From: Candidatus Thiovulum imperiosus
GTDB lineage: Bacteria > Campylobacterota > Campylobacteria > Campylobacterales > Thiovulaceae
Length of the DNA stretch: 60,148 nt
Direction of reading: 5' to 3'
Assembly (NCBI GenBank): GCA_024281175.1
Contig: JAMJTW010000030.1
Location: 1 to 60,148 of the forward strand
The notes beneath the pieces were generated by a model. The model did no database searches. It saw only the letters and a program-made list of their open reading frames with translations, and was not told the DNA's origin. Positions 5,405 through 13,619 of the stretch are shown here, piece after piece; the first letter of the stretch is position 1; each line of letters begins with the position of its first letter. A program made the position numbers and the translations under genes.

Positions 5405-5434
5405 GAGAAATCTTCTATGCTTCCAAGATTTCTC
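5405..5434. terminator. perfect hairpin in convergent gap
   Basis: A 10-bp perfect inverted repeat GAGAAATCTT/AAGATTTCTC with a 10-base loop, reaching the stop of the minus-strand gene. The stem is the same word found in the REP-like repeats, so this may be a reduced REP unit serving as a bidirectional terminator. Confidence 0.55.
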
Positions 5435-7244
5435 AAGTATGCTCATTCCATTTATCTTGTAACTTATCTTTTAAAATTCTATTATTCAACTCTTTAATAC
5501 TTTCAATATGAGTAAAGTTTTCTTGTAAGGCATCGCTATTTTTGTGACTAGTTGTAGCTATATCATCAATTATTTCCACTATCTTAGTTTTTCTATTATT
5601 GACTATTTCTTCTTGAGCTTTTAAAGAAGTTATGATTTGAAAAGTTTTATCAAATGTTTCAAGAAACTTTAATATATCGGAAGAGATGGCATTATAACTA
5701 TTTTTAATTGCAGAGATAGTATTAGATGCACTAACTATTTCAACATTGATATTTTTCATATTCTCTACAATTTTCTTTCTATCTTTTGAGATATTGTCGA
5801 TTTCACCATTCAACATATTGGCAATTATTATATTTTCATGACCAAGACTATCTACACTATCTGATATTATTTTAAGTGAACTTATAAATTTACCATTTAG
5901 AACTTTATTTACCTCATCAACTTTTTTTGAAAGAGAGAAGTTAACATTTCCACTCTCTTCTATTTTTTCTGAAATAAATAGTAGATTTTGCATACCATCT
6001 TCAAACTCACTTTTTGATGTAGAAAGATATGACTCCAAACTTTTAGAAATAGTTAAAAGAGCTTCAAAGTTAAAGCTAAAAGAGTGAATTGCTGAAATCC
6101 CATCTCGACTCCTCTTATTCAATCTTTTACTTATCTGATTTAATTCAAATGAGAGTCTCTCAAAATTCTCTAAAATATCTCTCTCTTCCTCTGATATCTC
6201 TTTGTCACTAATAATCTCATTCTTAAATCTATTAACTAGTATCTCTACATTTTTTCCTATCTCATAAAACTCATCTCTATTTTGAAATTGAACTTCTGGA
6301 GAGTTTTTAAACTCTACTGTAAACTCATGTAATTTATTAAAAGATTTTATAACTCTTTTTGAAAATAGAAATAGAGTTAATAAAAGTAGAAGTAGAGTTG
6401 TTACAATAGAGATTGCTGAAAATTTCTCAATCTGCTTTCTCTCTTGCTTTACCTTCCTATCTATATAGGATATTGTCTTATCAACTATTTGATAAGAGTT
6501 GTAAAGATAGTTTTGAATATCTCCTAAAATACCGTTATTCTTATAATTTCCTATTTTAGTTAAAACTTCAACAGATTGACCAAAATATTGTTGGTATTCT
6601 CTTAAGTTTAGAGTTATCTCATCTCTCTTTTTTTGAGAAAGGTTTGATTTTTGAATTCTTAAATAAAAATTGTCATAATTTAATTGAAACTTTTTCATAA
6701 AATAGATATCTCTTCTATTTACAAACTCCCTCTCATCAATTTCAAGAATTAAAATATCTTTTAAAAAAGAGTAGGCTTTTGCCTCTAAGATAGAGCTTCT
6801 AAGATGTTCTCTTGCAAAATTTAGATTTTGGAGAATACCCATATTTGAATTGAAACCAAACAGTTTCTCTTCATTACTATACTCTATAAAAGTTTTCAGT
6901 AGATGACTTACAAGATGTTGAAATTCACTAAGTTGGCTTCTATCAAATCCTCTCTCTTTAAACTTTCTACCAAGTTCATCAATTTTTTTCTGCAGTTTGT
7001 AGATATCTTTTCGAAAGATATCAGCCTGTTTCTCATCTTTGAACTCTTTAAATCTGTATATACTTCTTTCAGCCCTATAAAGATAATTTTTTAAAGTTGT
7101 TGTTGATACAAAAATTCTGTTTAATCTTTTAACTTCACTTGAATAATTTATAGTTAAAGCTATTATTAAAACAGATGAGAATAGTGTAAATATTACTGTT
7201 ATAATTAATATAGTTTTAATTGTTAATTTATTTATTAAGTTCAA
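5433..7244 (-). CDS. two-TM membrane signal-transducer-like protein with long coiled coil
   Basis: 603 residues. Start is TTG at 7244, with AAGGA nine bases upstream. TM1 at about residues 10-31, a helical periplasmic region to about 275, TM2 at about 278-300 and then a long cytoplasmic coiled coil. The topology and periplasmic four-helix look resemble a chemoreceptor, but the conserved chemoreceptor tip (the [16 protein letters not shown] type) is absent and I see no kinase, GGDEF or EAL motif. It follows the bcsQ-like gene on the same strand 62 bases downstream, so it may belong to the exopolysaccharide cluster as an input or scaffold protein. Confidence 0.75.
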   Translation of the reverse strand: MNLINKLTIKTILIITVIFTLFSSVLIIALTINYSSEVKRLNRIFVSTTTLKNYLYRAERSIYRFKEFKDEKQADIFRKDIYKLQKKIDELGRKFKERGFDRSQLSEFQHLVSHLLKTFIEYSNEEKLFGFNSNMGILQNLNFAREHLRSSILEAKAYSFLKDILILEIDEREFVNRRDIYFMKKFQLNYDNFYLRIQKSNLSQKKRDEITLNLREYQQYFGQSVEVLTKIGNYKNNGILGDIQNYLYNSYQIVDKTISYIDRKVKQERKQIEKFSAISIVTTLLLLLLTLFLFSKRVIKSFNKLHEFTVEFKNSPEVQFQNRDEFYEIGKNVEILVNRFKNEIISDKEISEEERDILENFERLSFELNQISKRLNKRSRDGISAIHSFSFNFEALLTISKSLESYLSTSKSEFEDGMQNLLFISEKIEESGNVNFSLSKKVDEVNKVLNGKFISSLKIISDSVDSLGHENIIIANMLNGEIDNISKDRKKIVENMKNINVEIVSASNTISAIKNSYNAISSDILKFLETFDKTFQIITSLKAQEEIVNNRKTKIVEIIDDIATTSHKNSDALQENFTHIESIKELNNRILKDKLQDKWNEHT

Positions 7245-7306: not shown

Positions 7307-8056
7307 TTAATTTAATCTTTGTAACTTTTCTAAAAAAATAACCATCATCTCATCTAATAAAATAGCGTAAGGACTATCTGAAAAGTTTGTATATATTGTT
7401 TCACAGTTAGCAACTGCTTTTTTTATATTTGAGTCATAAGGTAGTGAGAATAGGTATCGGTCTTCAAAAACAAACTTAAGGAGTTTCTCAAAATCGACAC
7501 TTAAATCATCTATATCTACTAAATTTATTACAAATAAAATCTCTTTCTCTTCAGCATCTCTTATTTTGGAAAGAATAGACTCCATCAAATCTAAAGTTGC
7601 ATAAGAGGTTGGGTCAGCTTCAAGAAGTCCCAAAATAATATTACTAGCTAACATAGCACTATTTGCCATCGGATTAAAACCTGGCGGAGTATCAAATATA
7701 ACAAAATCGTACTCATCTTCAAGCTCTTCGATGATTGCCTCTTTAACAAAATAAGGCTCTTCTTGTAATAGTGATGAAAACTCAAGAGTATCTCTATTTG
7801 CCTCTATTCCAGTAGACATAAAATAGAAACCTTGAGCTGTCTCTATAACAAGTTCACCTAATTTTGCAGAACCATTTACTAATTCACTTAAACCTTTCTG
7901 TAATTCTAAACCCAATACACCTAAAATAGAGTTTTGAGGGTCTGTATCTATTACCAAAACTTTATAGTTTTGTCTAACTAAATTTGTAGCCATATTTGTT
8001 GATAAAGTTGTCTTTCCAACACCACCTTTTGAAGAGTATACAGTTATAACTTTCAT
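7307..8056 (-). CDS. ParA/MinD-type ATPase, BcsQ-like
   Basis: 249 residues. The deviant Walker A KGGVGKTT is at residues 9-16, the second conserved block is VIDTDPQNS near residue 40 and Walker B-like VIFDTPPGF near residue 120. This family makes membrane- or DNA-associated dimers that position complexes. The gene sits directly behind a BcsC-like barrel and a GH8 glucanase, the setting of BcsQ (YhjQ), which localises cellulose synthase at the pole. Its ATG shares one base with the stop of the barrel gene (TAATG), implying coupled translation. A chromosome-partition ParA is less likely, as no parB or centromere-like repeats are nearby. Confidence 0.8.
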   Translation of the reverse strand: MKVITVYSSKGGVGKTTLSTNMATNLVRQNYKVLVIDTDPQNSILGVLGLELQKGLSELVNGSAKLGELVIETAQGFYFMSTGIEANRDTLEFSSLLQEEPYFVKEAIIEELEDEYDFVIFDTPPGFNPMANSAMLASNIILGLLEADPTSYATLDLMESILSKIRDAEEKEILFVINLVDIDDLSVDFEKLLKFVFEDRYLFSLPYDSNIKKAVANCETIYTNFSDSPYAILLDEMMVIFLEKLQRLN

Positions 8057-10044
8057 TATTCCGCCATCTCTCTTAAACTAGAAGCGTTGGACAAATCACC
8101 TACACTGTTGCCTTTACTACCAAAATAATAAACTGCATTTAGACCAAAAAATAGATTTGCAAAATTCTCTGCATATTGATAGCCCATTCCTCCTAAGAGT
8201 TGAAGAGATGAGTCGAGTTTATAACCTCCAAATAGTTTAAGGTCATAACCAAATCCTCCAGCCTCTTCTGCCACAGACTCTTCCCGAAACATGTCAGCTC
8301 CATTTGTAAAACTCATAATTCCTGCATTTCCTTTAACTTTCCAGAAAAATTTTTCATCAACAACTCTTCCAGCATCAGCATAAACACCCAAAAGAATAAA
8401 GTTTTTAGGAGAGAAGTAGCCTCCATTTCCATATCCATCTTGTCCCATTGTAAAATAACTACTACTGTATGTGTAGTTATCATAAATTAAAATAGGACCA
8501 ACCATAAAAGTATCGATTTTATCGATATCAAGAAGTCGAAGATATAGGAGGGTTAGAGCCATCTCCTCATTATCCATCACTTTATAGCCAGTAAGCTTAT
8601 AATAGTTGAGGTTTCCAGCCACGATTTCTCCATCGTGTGAGTGCTTCAAACCAATTTCAAATCCCTGTTTAGTTATACCACCCCTAACACCACTACCTAT
8701 TGTTGAGTTCTCTTCATTTATTAACGCTGTCTCGGGGTCATCAGGAGTAATTATATTTTTGTACTCATATCTATCTCCAACCCAAGAGAGCATAGTATCT
8801 TTGACACTCTTATTTACATAGGCTACATCAAGTGATATTTTACCGAATTTGGTTGAGTATTTAATTTTCCAAGAGTTTTCTACGGTAGGAGATACAGCAG
8901 GAGATGGTGCAGAGCCATATTCTAAGGTTATAGAGTCATCATCACCAAGATATTGATAACCAACTTTCCATTCACCTAAATTGGAGATAGCTTCAACATT
9001 TCCACCCTCATTTGCACCGTATCTATCGTTTGCATCACCAACAATTGTTCCACTATTCATATTTAGTAAATTAAAATTTCCGTAGAGATGGTGAGACATT
9101 CCTAAATAGATGTGTGCATCAAAAGTTGGTAAAACAAATGTATCAAGAGCGTCTAAACCAGCTTCACCACTTCTAGTTTTGTAGAACATTCCAACTCCAA
9201 CAGAGTCTCGGCTATCTCCTAAAACATCATCTTTTAATTCAGACACTTTTGCTAAAAATGGATTTGAAACATCATTTTCAAACTCTGGAGTTTCTGTACT
9301 CTTCTCTTCTCTCTTTGTTGGAAGTTTTGGAGGTGTTTCAAAATTTTCTTGAGGTTGATGCTCTTTTGGAAATTCTGGAATTTCAAGAACCTCATCATCA
9401 CTTATCTCAACTTCAATAGTCTCTTTCTCAGGTTCACTTTCCACCTCTTCAGAAAAAAATATATCTATTGGAATAGCATCTATCTCTTTAACATCTTGCT
9501 TAAAAAGTTCTGTATAAGGTATATCACTTATCTTTTTTGGCTTCAAACTATTTTGGTGTGCAGAGTTCAAATTCATCACCTCTATATTTGAAGGTGTACT
9601 CTCTAAATTTGAAACAGCTCTATTTTCTAAAACTCCGTCCCAAGATGTATCTTCTCCAGAAATAGGTCTAATTTCTAAACCAGTTCCTGAAGTAGGAACT
9701 TCTTCCAAACTAACTCCAGAAATTGGAGTTCCTAAAACTGGAGTTGCCTCAAAACCAATTCCTGAAACTGGAGTTGCCTCAAAACCAGTTCCTAAAACTG
9801 GAGTTGCCTCAAAACCAGTTCCTGAAGTTGGAGTTGCCTCCAAACCTGCGCCTAAAACTGGAGTTGCCTCAAAACTTGTTCCTGAAGTTGGATTTATCTC
9901 AAAACCAGTTCCTGAAGTTGGATTTATCTCAAAACCTGTTTCTGAAACTGGAACTATATTTGAAGTTGGATTTACTTCCAAACCTGTGCCTAAAATTGGA
10001 GTTGCGTCTAAATTCATCTCTTTACCAACTGAAAAATCCTTCAT
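8056..10044 (-). CDS. BcsC-type outer-membrane beta-barrel, separated from its TPR part
   Basis: About 662 residues from ATG 10042-10044. It has no signal peptide, which an outer-membrane protein needs. Layout: about eleven 10-residue repeats of the GTGFEATPVS type (residues 10-125), an acidic Pro/Glu-rich linker (190-280), then a barrel with alternating strands and the GGYFSPKNFILLG segment typical of the BcsC C-terminal domain; it ends SLREMAE. The frame is open upstream into the end of the TPR gene, and the two frames join if the A10 tract at 10051-10060 loses one base. I therefore read it as the C-terminal half of one exporter, expressed only after slippage, or a recently split gene. It would form the pore that takes a glucan through the outer membrane. 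Confidence 0.75.
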   Translation of the reverse strand: MKDFSVGKEMNLDATPILGTGLEVNPTSNIVPVSETGFEINPTSGTGFEINPTSGTSFEATPVLGAGLEATPTSGTGFEATPVLGTGFEATPVSGIGFEATPVLGTPISGVSLEEVPTSGTGLEIRPISGEDTSWDGVLENRAVSNLESTPSNIEVMNLNSAHQNSLKPKKISDIPYTELFKQDVKEIDAIPIDIFFSEEVESEPEKETIEVEISDDEVLEIPEFPKEHQPQENFETPPKLPTKREEKSTETPEFENDVSNPFLAKVSELKDDVLGDSRDSVGVGMFYKTRSGEAGLDALDTFVLPTFDAHIYLGMSHHLYGNFNLLNMNSGTIVGDANDRYGANEGGNVEAISNLGEWKVGYQYLGDDDSITLEYGSAPSPAVSPTVENSWKIKYSTKFGKISLDVAYVNKSVKDTMLSWVGDRYEYKNIITPDDPETALINEENSTIGSGVRGGITKQGFEIGLKHSHDGEIVAGNLNYYKLTGYKVMDNEEMALTLLYLRLLDIDKIDTFMVGPILIYDNYTYSSSYFTMGQDGYGNGGYFSPKNFILLGVYADAGRVVDEKFFWKVKGNAGIMSFTNGADMFREESVAEEAGGFGYDLKLFGGYKLDSSLQLLGGMGYQYAENFANLFFGLNAVYYFGSKGNSVGDLSNASSLREMAE
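9655..10015. repeat. 30-bp in-frame minisatellite
   Basis: About eleven imperfect copies of a 30-bp unit, whose + strand reading resembles CTGGAGTTGCCTCAAAACCA with variations, encode the 10-residue GTGFEATPVS-like repeat in the barrel gene. Unit length is a multiple of three, so copy-number change would alter the linker without breaking the frame. An open frame on the opposite strand here is only a repeat shadow. Confidence 0.85.
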
Positions 10045-12640
10045 TGACCCTTTTTTTTTTGATTTCAAGAGTTTCTGGTTCTGGAACAACTTGGGGTACT
10101 GAATTGTATATTGTTTGAGTTTTTGGTATTTCCATAATTGGAGGTGGAGAAGTTGCAATATTTCCAGCTAGAAAAGGGTTAAATGTATTTAGGTTATCTT
10201 TTTGAGAAATCTCTTGGGAAATTGGCATTGCTGTAAATTGAGTTGGGCTATTTCCTCCACTGTTTGCACTTTTCTGTATACCTATATCTCTTTTTCCCAA
10301 CTCTTCAATAAGTTTTATAACTCGATAAGAGTCTTTTTTAAATCCTATATCCTTATATATCTCAGCAACTTTATAGAGTAAATCTATATCGGAACTTCTT
10401 TCAGCCATTTTGAAATAGTTTTTAGCTTTAACAAACTGTTTTAAATTCACATAAGCTAAACCAAGTCCATACATGATAGTATAGTTTTTAGGTTCTTTGA
10501 CAATCATTTTGTTGAAGTAGAAAATTGCATCATTGTATCGTTTGCTATTCAATCCAGCCCAACCAGCACTCTCTATAAAAAATGTATCTTCAGGCTCCAT
10601 CTGTAATCCAGATTTTGCACCTTTTAGAGCATAAACATAATCTTTCTCTTCAAGTGAAACAGCTGTATATTTCTTATAAAATTTTATATAGAAATCTCGA
10701 AGTTGTGTTCTCTGTTCAGGAGAAAATTTGAAACCTTGAAATTTTCCTAAAAGAGTCTGTATCTGGTCAAAAAGGTTCTGTTCTAAAAGTAAATTTAAGA
10801 GTTTTATTCTAGTTCCAAAATTTTCTGGGTCGAGTTGAAAAGCTCTACCGTAATAGAAATAGGCATCTCTAATATTGTTTCCTTCCATATTCAAATCACC
10901 GAGAATTTTATAAAGCTCAACATTTGTTGGGTCATCTAAAAGCATACTTTTTGCTAAATTCATAGCCTCTCTTTTGTTATTCTCTTGCATATACATCTTT
11001 AGTTTTGTACTATTTGTCAGAGTTTTAATTTCAGGACTATCTCCTTTTAACTTTTGAAGGAGTTGTAAAGCATCACCATACTTTTCAGTAGCGATATAGA
11101 CTTTACTAAGTCCAAGAATTACATTTTTATTTGTCTCATCTCGACTCAAAACAGTTTTATAATACTCTATGGCACTGCTATATTTTTTCTCTCCTCTATA
11201 CACTTCAGCAAAGTAGAGAAGAACTTTCTGATTTGTTGGAAACATTAAGTAGAGTTCTCGAAGAAGACTTTTAGCTTGGTGATAATGTTGCTCGTTGATG
11301 AGGTTTTCTACCTCTTTAAGAAGTTTTTCTCTTTTTGGATTGTATTCAAGATTTGCTTGAAAGTTTGGTTCAAGTGAGTTGAAAAAGGCTTCTGCTTCTG
11401 GTTCTCTTTTTGCTTTTAAATAAGCATCAATTAGAAGATTTGCACTTTTAAAATCTCTTTTTTTGTCAAAGATTTTTTTGGCTTCTGGTATTGCACTATC
11501 AAAATCTTTTGCATTCGTAAAGGCGTAAGCAAGACCCTCACTAACATCTGCTGTCATCTCAACTTCACCAGCTTTTTTAAAAAAAGCGATAGATTTATCA
11601 GGGTCACTTGAGACATTTTTCCAACCTTTTTTTAAGTTCATGTTGTAGATGATAGATTGGAAAGTTTTTTGAATATCATCTCTATCTTTAGCTAGTGCTA
11701 CAATTGGATTTAAAGTTACATATGCTTTAAGCCAATCTCCCTCATTCATAAATGCAAGAGCATAACCAAAAGATGCATCAATATCTTGCGGACTATATTT
11801 TAAAATATCACTAAAAATCTCTTTTGCAGTTGAGAGCTTTTTTGCATTCAGAGCTTTATATCCATCAGCAATTGAGTGTTTTGAACGACCACCTTTTAAA
11901 AGATGAAGTTGTGGAGGTTGAGAATTTGTATTCCCATTTACTTCTCGATTTTGCAATTCTTCTCGAGGATTTCTAGTAAGAGCTGGTCTCTCTTCTCGAG
12001 GGTTTCTAGTGATGGCTGGTCTCTCCTCTTGAGGATTTCTAGTGAGAGCTGGTCTCTCTTCTCGAGGGTTTCTAGTAACAGGGTTTTCCTGAGGAGTACT
12101 ACCTCCTCCTAAAAAGAATTCACTTGGAACACTTTTATCTCTAACTACAAAGTAGTCTACTCCAAATCTTCTCAAGATATTTTGTCCCTCTCTTAAAGCT
12201 GAACGACTTGTAGATGGGTTGCATCGAAGATAGAGATATCGTCCCTCTCTCAAATAGCATTTTAGTCCCATATTTTCAATTCGGTTCTTTTCTCTCTCTG
12301 CAGCTTTTCGATACGACTTACTTGTTGTTAAAGTTTGAATAGCGTAAAAAGTTCTGGAAGAGCTACTCTGCTTTCGTGTTACTCTTTGTGGTTCAGGATT
12401 TGAGTTTTTAGCCTTCACTTTTAATTTTACAATTGCTCTCTCTATCTCTCTGTTTCCGGGAAAGTCTCTATTGTACTTCTCATAAACATTGAGAGCTTTT
12501 TCATAATCACCTTTCTCTTCAAAACTCTTTCCAAGATTTAAAATTGATTTTTCATAAAGAGAGACTGCTGAAAATAGATTATTCGGAAAATATGTCAGTA
12601 AAAAGAAGTAAACTAAAAGAGTAGTAGTTGTCTGTTTCAT
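10022..12640 (-). CDS. periplasmic TPR/SPOR-like protein, N-terminal half of a BcsC-like exporter
   Basis: 872 residues with a signal peptide (about 1-24), a first TPR-like helix pair, a SPOR-like segment (about 112-165: FYAIQTLTTSKSYRKA and downstream), an 11-residue repeat block (about 188-230), then roughly fifteen TPR units to residue 800. AAGGA lies seven bases before the ATG, which is inside the 3' end of the GH8 gene (62-bp overlap). The last codons read ATC-AAA-AAA-AAA-AGG and then a stop follows within 13 codons. The TPR plus downstream barrel order equals BcsC, in which the TPR scaffold binds the synthase and the peptidoglycan. SPOR suggests binding to denuded septal glycan, which is not usual for BcsC. 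Confidence 0.85.
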   Translation of the reverse strand: MKQTTTTLLVYFFLLTYFPNNLFSAVSLYEKSILNLGKSFEEKGDYEKALNVYEKYNRDFPGNREIERAIVKLKVKAKNSNPEPQRVTRKQSSSSRTFYAIQTLTTSKSYRKAAEREKNRIENMGLKCYLREGRYLYLRCNPSTSRSALREGQNILRRFGVDYFVVRDKSVPSEFFLGGGSTPQENPVTRNPREERPALTRNPQEERPAITRNPREERPALTRNPREELQNREVNGNTNSQPPQLHLLKGGRSKHSIADGYKALNAKKLSTAKEIFSDILKYSPQDIDASFGYALAFMNEGDWLKAYVTLNPIVALAKDRDDIQKTFQSIIYNMNLKKGWKNVSSDPDKSIAFFKKAGEVEMTADVSEGLAYAFTNAKDFDSAIPEAKKIFDKKRDFKSANLLIDAYLKAKREPEAEAFFNSLEPNFQANLEYNPKREKLLKEVENLINEQHYHQAKSLLRELYLMFPTNQKVLLYFAEVYRGEKKYSSAIEYYKTVLSRDETNKNVILGLSKVYIATEKYGDALQLLQKLKGDSPEIKTLTNSTKLKMYMQENNKREAMNLAKSMLLDDPTNVELYKILGDLNMEGNNIRDAYFYYGRAFQLDPENFGTRIKLLNLLLEQNLFDQIQTLLGKFQGFKFSPEQRTQLRDFYIKFYKKYTAVSLEEKDYVYALKGAKSGLQMEPEDTFFIESAGWAGLNSKRYNDAIFYFNKMIVKEPKNYTIMYGLGLAYVNLKQFVKAKNYFKMAERSSDIDLLYKVAEIYKDIGFKKDSYRVIKLIEELGKRDIGIQKSANSGGNSPTQFTAMPISQEISQKDNLNTFNPFLAGNIATSPPPIMEIPKTQTIYNSVPQVVPEPETLEIKKKRVNEGFFSW
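10051..10060 (-). other. A10 homopolymer at the frame boundary of the BcsC-like genes
   Basis: On the coding strand ten adenines precede GGGTCAATGAAGG. With ten A the TPR frame ends at 10022; with nine A it would read straight into the barrel frame (I-K-K-K-G-S-M-K-D). Homopolymers of this length are slippery for RNA polymerase and during replication. A sequencing or assembly error is the trivial alternative. Confidence 0.8.
11950..12080. repeat. 33-bp in-frame minisatellite
   Basis: About four copies of a 33-bp unit encode the 11-residue repeat RNPREERPALT between the SPOR-like and TPR regions of the minus-strand gene. It is a proline/arginine/glutamate-rich flexible spacer. Confidence 0.85.
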
Positions 12641-13619
12641 TCTTAATTCCTTTCTCTATTTTTCTATCCATCTCTTCCAATGGTTCTAAATTGAATATTT
12701 TAAATAGATAGCGGTATACTGCTATAAATCCATAAGGTGGATATCTATATCGAATTCTATGACTTTTGAAATCTATCTGGTAAATATATTTGTCCAGCTT
12801 TTTTATATACTGCATAAATACTCGATACCCTACCAGAAGTTCTTTAAATGCCATCTCTCTTTTTAGTTGATACTGTCTTGCTAAGAAAAGTGGTGTTCTG
12901 ATGGAATCAAAACCAAAAATTGACTTCTCTTCTAAATAGTCGTATTTTCTACTTTTTCTATCCAACATAATCCAATCTGGGTGCATCTTCAAATTTCCAA
13001 GAGCTGAACCTTCAAACATACTTAAAGAATCTAAAACAAGAGATTGCCAAATTCTATCTTTGTCATAAATTGCAAACTTATCAAAAATAAAAGGAATTGT
13101 GTAAGATGGATTTAGTTGAATATACTCGTTTTGGACAAATCCAAAAGATGCTGGAATAAGTAGCAGTTTGCCATTTTCCCGAATCAAACAGCTTTTTTTA
13201 ATTTCAGAAATAAGTTTTTCAGCCTCTTTCAGATACTCATGATTTCCCCATTTCTCATAGGCAAGAAGTAGAGAATAGGCTATCCACATATCTCCATCAG
13301 TTGCATTATTGTAATCAAGAATTCCCCAACTACCACTATCTCGTTTTCCCCATTTCCAAGCGTAAAGATTATATTTATTCAACTCCATATTTGAGTGAAG
13401 CCAGTTATGAATTTTTTGGAAAGTTTCTAAATCTCCATAAGAGACTGCAAAATACATTCCGTAGCCGATAGACTCTGTGTGGGTTATATCAGCATTCATC
13501 TTATCAATCACTCTACCATCTTCTGAAATAAACTGCTTTTTAAATTGTGTCCAGTAGTTGTAATCTAGAGCATTTGCAAAAATTGGAAACAGCAAAAAAA
13601 GTGTTATCAATATTTTCAT
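12579..13619 (-). CDS. glycoside hydrolase family 8 endoglucanase, BcsZ-like
   Basis: 346 residues with a signal peptide (about 1-18), so periplasmic. GH8 features: the acid Glu in THTESIGYGMYFA near residue 50, the base/substrate Asp in ATDGDMWIAYSLLLAYEKW near residue 110, WKWG and the later YTIPFIFDKFA segment. GH8 enzymes hydrolyse beta-1,4-glucans; BcsZ trims nascent cellulose and is needed for export. It is the first visible gene of the minus-strand cluster and overlaps the TPR gene start by 62 bp. No BcsA/BcsB synthase gene lies next to it, so the exact glucan is an inference. Confidence 0.85.
   Translation of the reverse strand: MKILITLFLLFPIFANALDYNYWTQFKKQFISEDGRVIDKMNADITHTESIGYGMYFAVSYGDLETFQKIHNWLHSNMELNKYNLYAWKWGKRDSGSWGILDYNNATDGDMWIAYSLLLAYEKWGNHEYLKEAEKLISEIKKSCLIRENGKLLLIPASFGFVQNEYIQLNPSYTIPFIFDKFAIYDKDRIWQSLVLDSLSMFEGSALGNLKMHPDWIMLDRKSRKYDYLEEKSIFGFDSIRTPLFLARQYQLKREMAFKELLVGYRVFMQYIKKLDKYIYQIDFKSHRIRYRYPPYGFIAVYRYLFKIFNLEPLEEMDRKIEKGIKNETDNYYSFSLLLFTDIFSE

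Follow-up and report, generated by a model that had tools for sequence, protein, structure and literature searches.

Organization of the bcsC locus

The window, that is, the whole stretch of 60,148 nucleotides from Candidatus Thiovulum imperiosus analysed in the present study, carries on its minus strand, in this order, a bcsZ-like gene for a GH8 endoglucanase (12579..13619; assigned by family match), an adjoining TPR open reading frame (ORF; 10022..12640), a barrel frame, a gene for a BcsQ-like ParA ATPase (7307..8056; TIGR03371, 5e-29, below the cut-off of this family) and, directly downstream of the latter, an ORF of 603 aa (5433..7244), which is tentatively assigned to the operon from its position and for which no match was found in Pfam or NCBIfam. 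The zero-frame TPR ORF encodes 872 aa corresponding to the periplasmic half of the exporter BcsC. It starts at 12640 with a signal peptide (N-terminus MKQTTTTLLVYFFLLTYFPNNLFSA), judged by sequence and hydropathy without a dedicated predictor, continues with a SPOR-like N-terminal part, assigned by eye, and with TPR repeats (Pfam TPR_19, 1e-41; a weak BcsC match, NF008520, 7e-11), and ends at 10022.

The junction between the two halves is a T10 run at 10051-10060 of the plus strand, i.e., an A10 run on the coding strand (putative slippage tract, 10051..10060, minus strand), preceded by the C of an ATC codon. The zero frame is read here as CTT GAA ATC AAA AAA AAA AGG GTC AAT GAA GGA TTT TTC AGT TGG TAA, with the stop nine codons past the KKK of the tract (KKK-RVNEGFFSW-stop; tail at 10022..10050). 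The barrel frame is +1 to that of the TPR half and runs open from 10158, upstream of the tract, to 8056; past the tract, the continuation in this frame (8056..10059) comprises a linker and the barrel. The TPR array and the signal peptide lie upstream of the barrel in the same transcription unit, in a different frame. With nine A instead of ten, both frames fuse (863 + 664 = ~1,527 aa). No signal-peptide-like segment was found in the barrel half, the highest hydropathy of any 12-aa stretch among its first 250 residues being 1.2, versus 2.0 in the TPR N-terminus. A sequence-only reading of this DNA had described a BcsC-like exporter split by A10 into two frames, with a signal peptide on the TPR half and none on the barrel half, a barrel frame open upstream across the tract and a joined protein of ~1,520 residues after removal of one A; each of these points was borne out. 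Between the tract and the barrel, the linker carries imperfect tandem repeats (PTSGTGFEATPVLGTGFE-like; 9660..9990, minus strand; TPVLGTGFEA...), and the linkers of relatives differ in length and sequence.

The barrel (8122..9078, minus strand) is that of BcsC. The barrel half matched PF05420 (BCSC_C) at 5e-23 over positions 24-335 of 336, and the solved Escherichia coli BcsC both in profile comparison (6TZK/9B8A, 1.2e-25) and in fold (9B8H, 6.5e-17); the model of the barrel reached pLDDT 73 with a 7-sequence alignment and pLDDT 31 with the single sequence. A protein search of the genome contigs with the barrel half as the query gave no match. Like E. coli BcsC (6TZK, 9B8A), the protein has a signal peptide, TPR repeats and a C-terminal barrel, and bcsZ, bcsQ-like, bcsA and bcsB genes are present in the genome; unlike its E. 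coli counterpart, encoded in one unbroken frame, it is split. It counts as BcsC only if the frames are joined. Changes in the barrel between the window and its counterpart in genome G003 occur at codon positions 1/2/3 with frequencies of 0.40/0.30/0.61, and both halves are under purifying selection, which argues that the barrel is made.

The genome of the window (36 contigs, 2.2 Mb, 98% complete) also encodes, on other contigs, four BcsB-like proteins and the cellulose synthase BcsA (TIGR03030, 780 bits, above the cut-off), which completes the bcs set to which the exporter belongs. Four BcsB-like paralogs per genome (G000 contigs C2, C14, C27 and C34; G003 contig C178, loci L074/L075; G002 C5) are unusual for a cellulose synthase; those of G003 and G002 are arranged in tandem. 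In G001, a genome of the same genus, none of bcsA, bcsB, bcsZ and bcsC was found, so not all members of the genus have the cellulose system.

Conservation of the tract in the Thiovulum family

The nearest relatives obtained by protein search were Ca. Thiovulum karukerense, the metagenome-assembled genome (MAG) UWMA-0117 and Ca. Thiovulum stygium; the genome of the window falls in the Thiovulum family, and the four bcs-bearing genomes represent four genera by database labels. The three relatives contributed four further bcsC copies. The five copies known, two of which come from one MAG (contig coverage 13.8 and 3.3) and one of these possibly from another strain, are all split at the same position, each by exactly A10 after E-[I/V]-K-K-K and with the barrel always in the +1 frame; a C likewise precedes the tract in L011, L012, L013 and L014. 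The continuous reading frame usual for BcsC is therefore absent from all five copies, and two separate genes, each with its own export signal, were not found among them, a result in favour of the sequence-only reading.

The codons at the site are conserved beyond the amino acids. In all four copies with a readable TPR frame, the five codons GAA-ATC-AAA-AAA-AAA are identical (GAA-ATC at 10061..10066, immediately 5' of the tract on the minus strand), and besides EIKKK the gene has just one other stretch of five identical codons in these copies, codon identity at identical residues elsewhere being 50-58%. Only one of 15 invariant Glu residues and three of 10 invariant Ile residues have the same codon in four of four copies, and the E and I of the site are among them. 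In the codon statistics, which cover the window and selected loci, ATC accounts for a minority of Ile codons (13-26%), the share of GAA varies (28-68%) and that of AAA is 68-86%. With the four lineages treated as independent, the product of these shares gives a chance of ~2e-6 for the codon string at the site, a value that shared ancestry makes less extreme. Moreover, AAG breaks up every other Lys run of at least three in these genes. A search of 399 genomes of the order for the 16-base site GARRTCA10 gave nine occurrences, of which five are the bcsC copies, one each; the remaining four belong to one unrelated genus, with longer runs (A12-A15) and not at a split gene.

Outside the Thiovulum family, PF05420 was detected in only four genomes of the order searched (G287, G371, G210 and G104), all with TPR and barrel in one open frame (710-1,161 aa). 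Judging from these outgroup sequences, BcsC is normally a fused protein, and within the genomes searched the split is confined to the Thiovulum family. The single-frame BcsC of G210, a member of another family, carries an in-frame A12 in the TPR-barrel linker (L061:4297-4308), which is possibly a mirror-image slippage site, where slippage would truncate the protein, or a matter of chance, this being one example; bcsC was not found in the other genomes of the G210 family among those searched.

Homopolymer runs in the genomes

Long A/T runs are avoided in the genes considered, since only four runs of at least eight A or T were observed in the genes of the window against 18.9 expected from synonymous codon shuffling. 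Such avoidance is expected where long runs slip, nine being the usual threshold of counter-selection (PMC1088944). In the 2.2-Mb genome of the window, 13 runs of at least ten A/T were counted, three of them inside genes, and the bcsC tract alone lies at a frame junction. With such runs rare in the genome and avoided in the genes of the window, and with the site recurring in every bcsC copy of the family, the split is not a product of chance. The other A10 or longer runs in G000, G002, G003 and G004, and most of those in G210, are intergenic for the most part or close to gene ends; the exceptions are the A12 in G210 bcsC, an in-frame A10 in one G003 linker and a few in-frame runs. The G003 run, a second A10 in the bcsC copy at L011 (L011:2053-2062), is located on the barrel side of the linker, and the paralog L014 has an A7 nearby. 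At L080 (G004, about 1506), a helicase-like frame ends at an A10 where another frame opens, which may be a sequencing error, as the T. stygium assembly has frame breaks elsewhere.

Discussion

The split of bcsC is real and conserved, and very probably functional. The cell very probably makes both products from this one gene, through slippage of RNA polymerase or, less likely, of the ribosome. Features of slippage genes include an uninterrupted A/T run of at least nine at an ORF overlap and retention of both the ORF arrangement and the run in homologs; bcsC has A10 at the overlap, and arrangement and run are kept in five of five copies. Programmed transcriptional slippage is probably the mechanism by which bcsC of the Thiovulum family gives two products, a short TPR-only protein and the full-length exporter. 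RNA polymerase would slip on A10 and produce a pool of mRNAs with runs of several lengths. The templated A10 mRNA would direct the synthesis of a TPR protein that is secreted to the periplasm and terminates shortly past the tract; an A11 mRNA would give a short TPR protein too, the third frame also stopping soon in four of the five copies; and mRNAs with nine (or 12) A would yield the full BcsC, the barrel of which would reach the outer membrane thanks to the signal peptide that the TPR half supplies. One gene would thus provide TPR-only scaffold alongside the complete channel for cellulose export. The basis for this reading is the anatomy of the gene, its frames, the conserved A10 with its codons and the other bcs genes of the genome, from which we infer slippage, its transcriptional level, its efficiency and the function of the short product. 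Outer-membrane barrels are Sec and BAM substrates, and one lacking a signal peptide, as the barrel half here, can get to the outer membrane only as part of a fusion protein.

No consistent hairpin was found when the 60-nt segments on either side of the tract were folded in the five copies (z from -1.9 to +1.4), and hairpin-assisted slippage or frameshifting is rejected on this basis. Pure homopolymer slippage needs no hairpin. The closest precedent is tssM of Citrobacter rodentium, in which slippage of 20-25% on an 11-A run gives truncated and full-length protein, both needed, and cDNA with 10 to 15 A (PMC4256274). As in the poly-A tssM of C. rodentium and Yersinia pseudotuberculosis, an A run shortly before a stop puts the remainder out of frame, so that the templated mRNA would encode a short protein and slippage the full-length one, and the product belongs to an envelope export machine (PMC4256274). 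The gene itself is a different one, slippage being proven for tssM and proposed from sequence for bcsC, and the frame is restored by an inserted A in tssM but would require the loss of one or the gain of two here. The length of the tract, the lack of conserved RNA structure and the tssM precedent together make programmed transcriptional slippage the most likely explanation, followed by ribosomal frameshifting. On A runs, the RNA polymerases of E. coli and Buchnera add one base in most cases (PMC5574713), whereas fusion here needs -1 or +2, so the yield of the full-length protein could be low; a channel formed as the minor product might suit an excess of free TPR scaffold. RNA-seq data exist for Ca. 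T. stygium (PRJNA673084; PMC9938260), whose tract lies at 1419895-1419904 of CP091137.1.

In programmed ribosomal frameshifting, which we regard as a rather unlikely source of the fusion, the P-site tRNA-Lys on AAA AAA AAA A would re-pair +1 or -2 into the barrel frame and the mRNA would stay A10. Ten A do allow full +1 re-pairing of the last tRNA-Lys, A runs are slippery for ribosomes as well, and in four of the five copies KKK is followed by an AGN codon in the zero frame. Nevertheless, the folds of the five copies gave no conserved downstream structure, an upstream Shine-Dalgarno-like element was not seen in the sequences read by eye, and neither a stop nor a slow codon is conserved in the A site; moreover, the common -1 shift leads to the wrong frame, and an uninterrupted run of ten exceeds what a -1 heptamer needs, being a better fit to RNA polymerase slippage.

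DNA-level phase variation, in which replication slippage would turn the exporter ON (A9, A12) or OFF (A10, A11), is improbable. Homopolymers act in this way in numerous bacteria, typically on surface structures (PMC3711429), but the run length, which varies between related genomes in phase-variable genes, is always ten here; all five copies are exactly A10, with none in the ON state and neither A9 nor A11 seen among the assemblies, and the flanking synonymous codons are conserved too. Accordingly, of the two possibilities left by the sequence-only reading, slippage and a phase switch, the former is favoured by an A10 at the same codons and with the same frame relation in five copies from four genera, and the latter is opposed by the constant length and by a fused state (nine or 12) never assembled in the family. 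A constant ratio of two products is a simpler reading than a switch.

A decaying gene, or two genes with translational restart of the barrel, is very improbable. In three copies, an in-frame ATG lies near the upstream stop (codons 6, 14 and 15, counting KKK), but in G004 the first ATG, GTG or TTG past the tract is codon 159, and in G002 a GTG at codon 4 is the sole candidate upstream of codon 109; translational restart is rejected, as no start codon is conserved. In addition, a restarted barrel would remain cytoplasmic, no barrel half having an export signal, and purifying selection on the barrel speaks against decay. Assembly or sequencing error, with a true A9 tract and one ordinary bcsC gene, is rejected as practically negligible: homopolymers are prone to error, and the data include MAGs and long reads (the G004 assembly of Ca. 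T. stygium, which has other frame breaks, was made from Nanopore reads with 12x Illumina polishing; PMC9938260), but the same A10 stands in five concordant copies from at least four assemblies obtained by different methods.

If transcriptional slippage operates, the TPR-only protein may have a function of its own. The zero-frame tails of the five copies read RVNEGFFSW, SFWF, SIWF, SGSWF and IGQQQWF, each followed by a stop; all end in W-(F)-stop (W-stop in the window, WF-stop in relatives), although their lengths differ. Within TTY, the C/T difference leaves the zero-frame residue (F) unchanged but alters that of the +1 frame (S or F), at most a hint of selection on the tail itself. A separate TPR scaffold is known from alginate export, in which AlgK, a lipoprotein and TPR scaffold, and the barrel AlgE are separate polypeptides encoded by two genes. 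The free TPR product of bcsC would be comparable to the former, except that one gene would provide both products here and AlgK is a lipoprotein.

Other slippage genes differ in their arrangement. In Thermus thermophilus dnaX (A9), homopolymer slippage also gives two lengths of one protein in a fixed ratio (PMC1088944, PMC5009743), but there the template itself reads in frame and slippage shortens the product, whereas in bcsC the template already encodes the truncated form. Shigella spa13 and mxiE, a secretion-apparatus and a regulator gene, are likewise extended through slippage (PMC5009743), but their proteins are unrelated and are not outer-membrane barrels. No link between BcsC and transcriptional slippage was found in the literature searched. 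To our knowledge, few ordinary chromosomal genes have a conserved slippage site. Thus, bcsC is very probably a new slippage gene of a known type, in an exporter for which the literature searched holds no such report.

Thiovulum secretes a stalk and forms veils; the 2022 genome paper assigned no polymer genes to them, and the words cellulose and polysaccharide are absent from it (PMC9938260). Stalk and veils may be linked with cellulose. As a tentative extension, it is conceivable that this giant veil- and stalk-forming family sets the ratio of free TPR scaffold to complete channel by slippage, both products being needed and the short one carrying a selected W-(F)-stop tail; the in-frame A12 of G210 would reach the same mixture from the opposite side. 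If slippage of this kind is true, an exopolysaccharide exporter would be made in two lengths from one gene, which raises the role of a free BcsC-type TPR protein, and cellulose secretion in Thiovulum may go unnoticed, as annotation pipelines would label the exporter as a pseudogene or as two genes.
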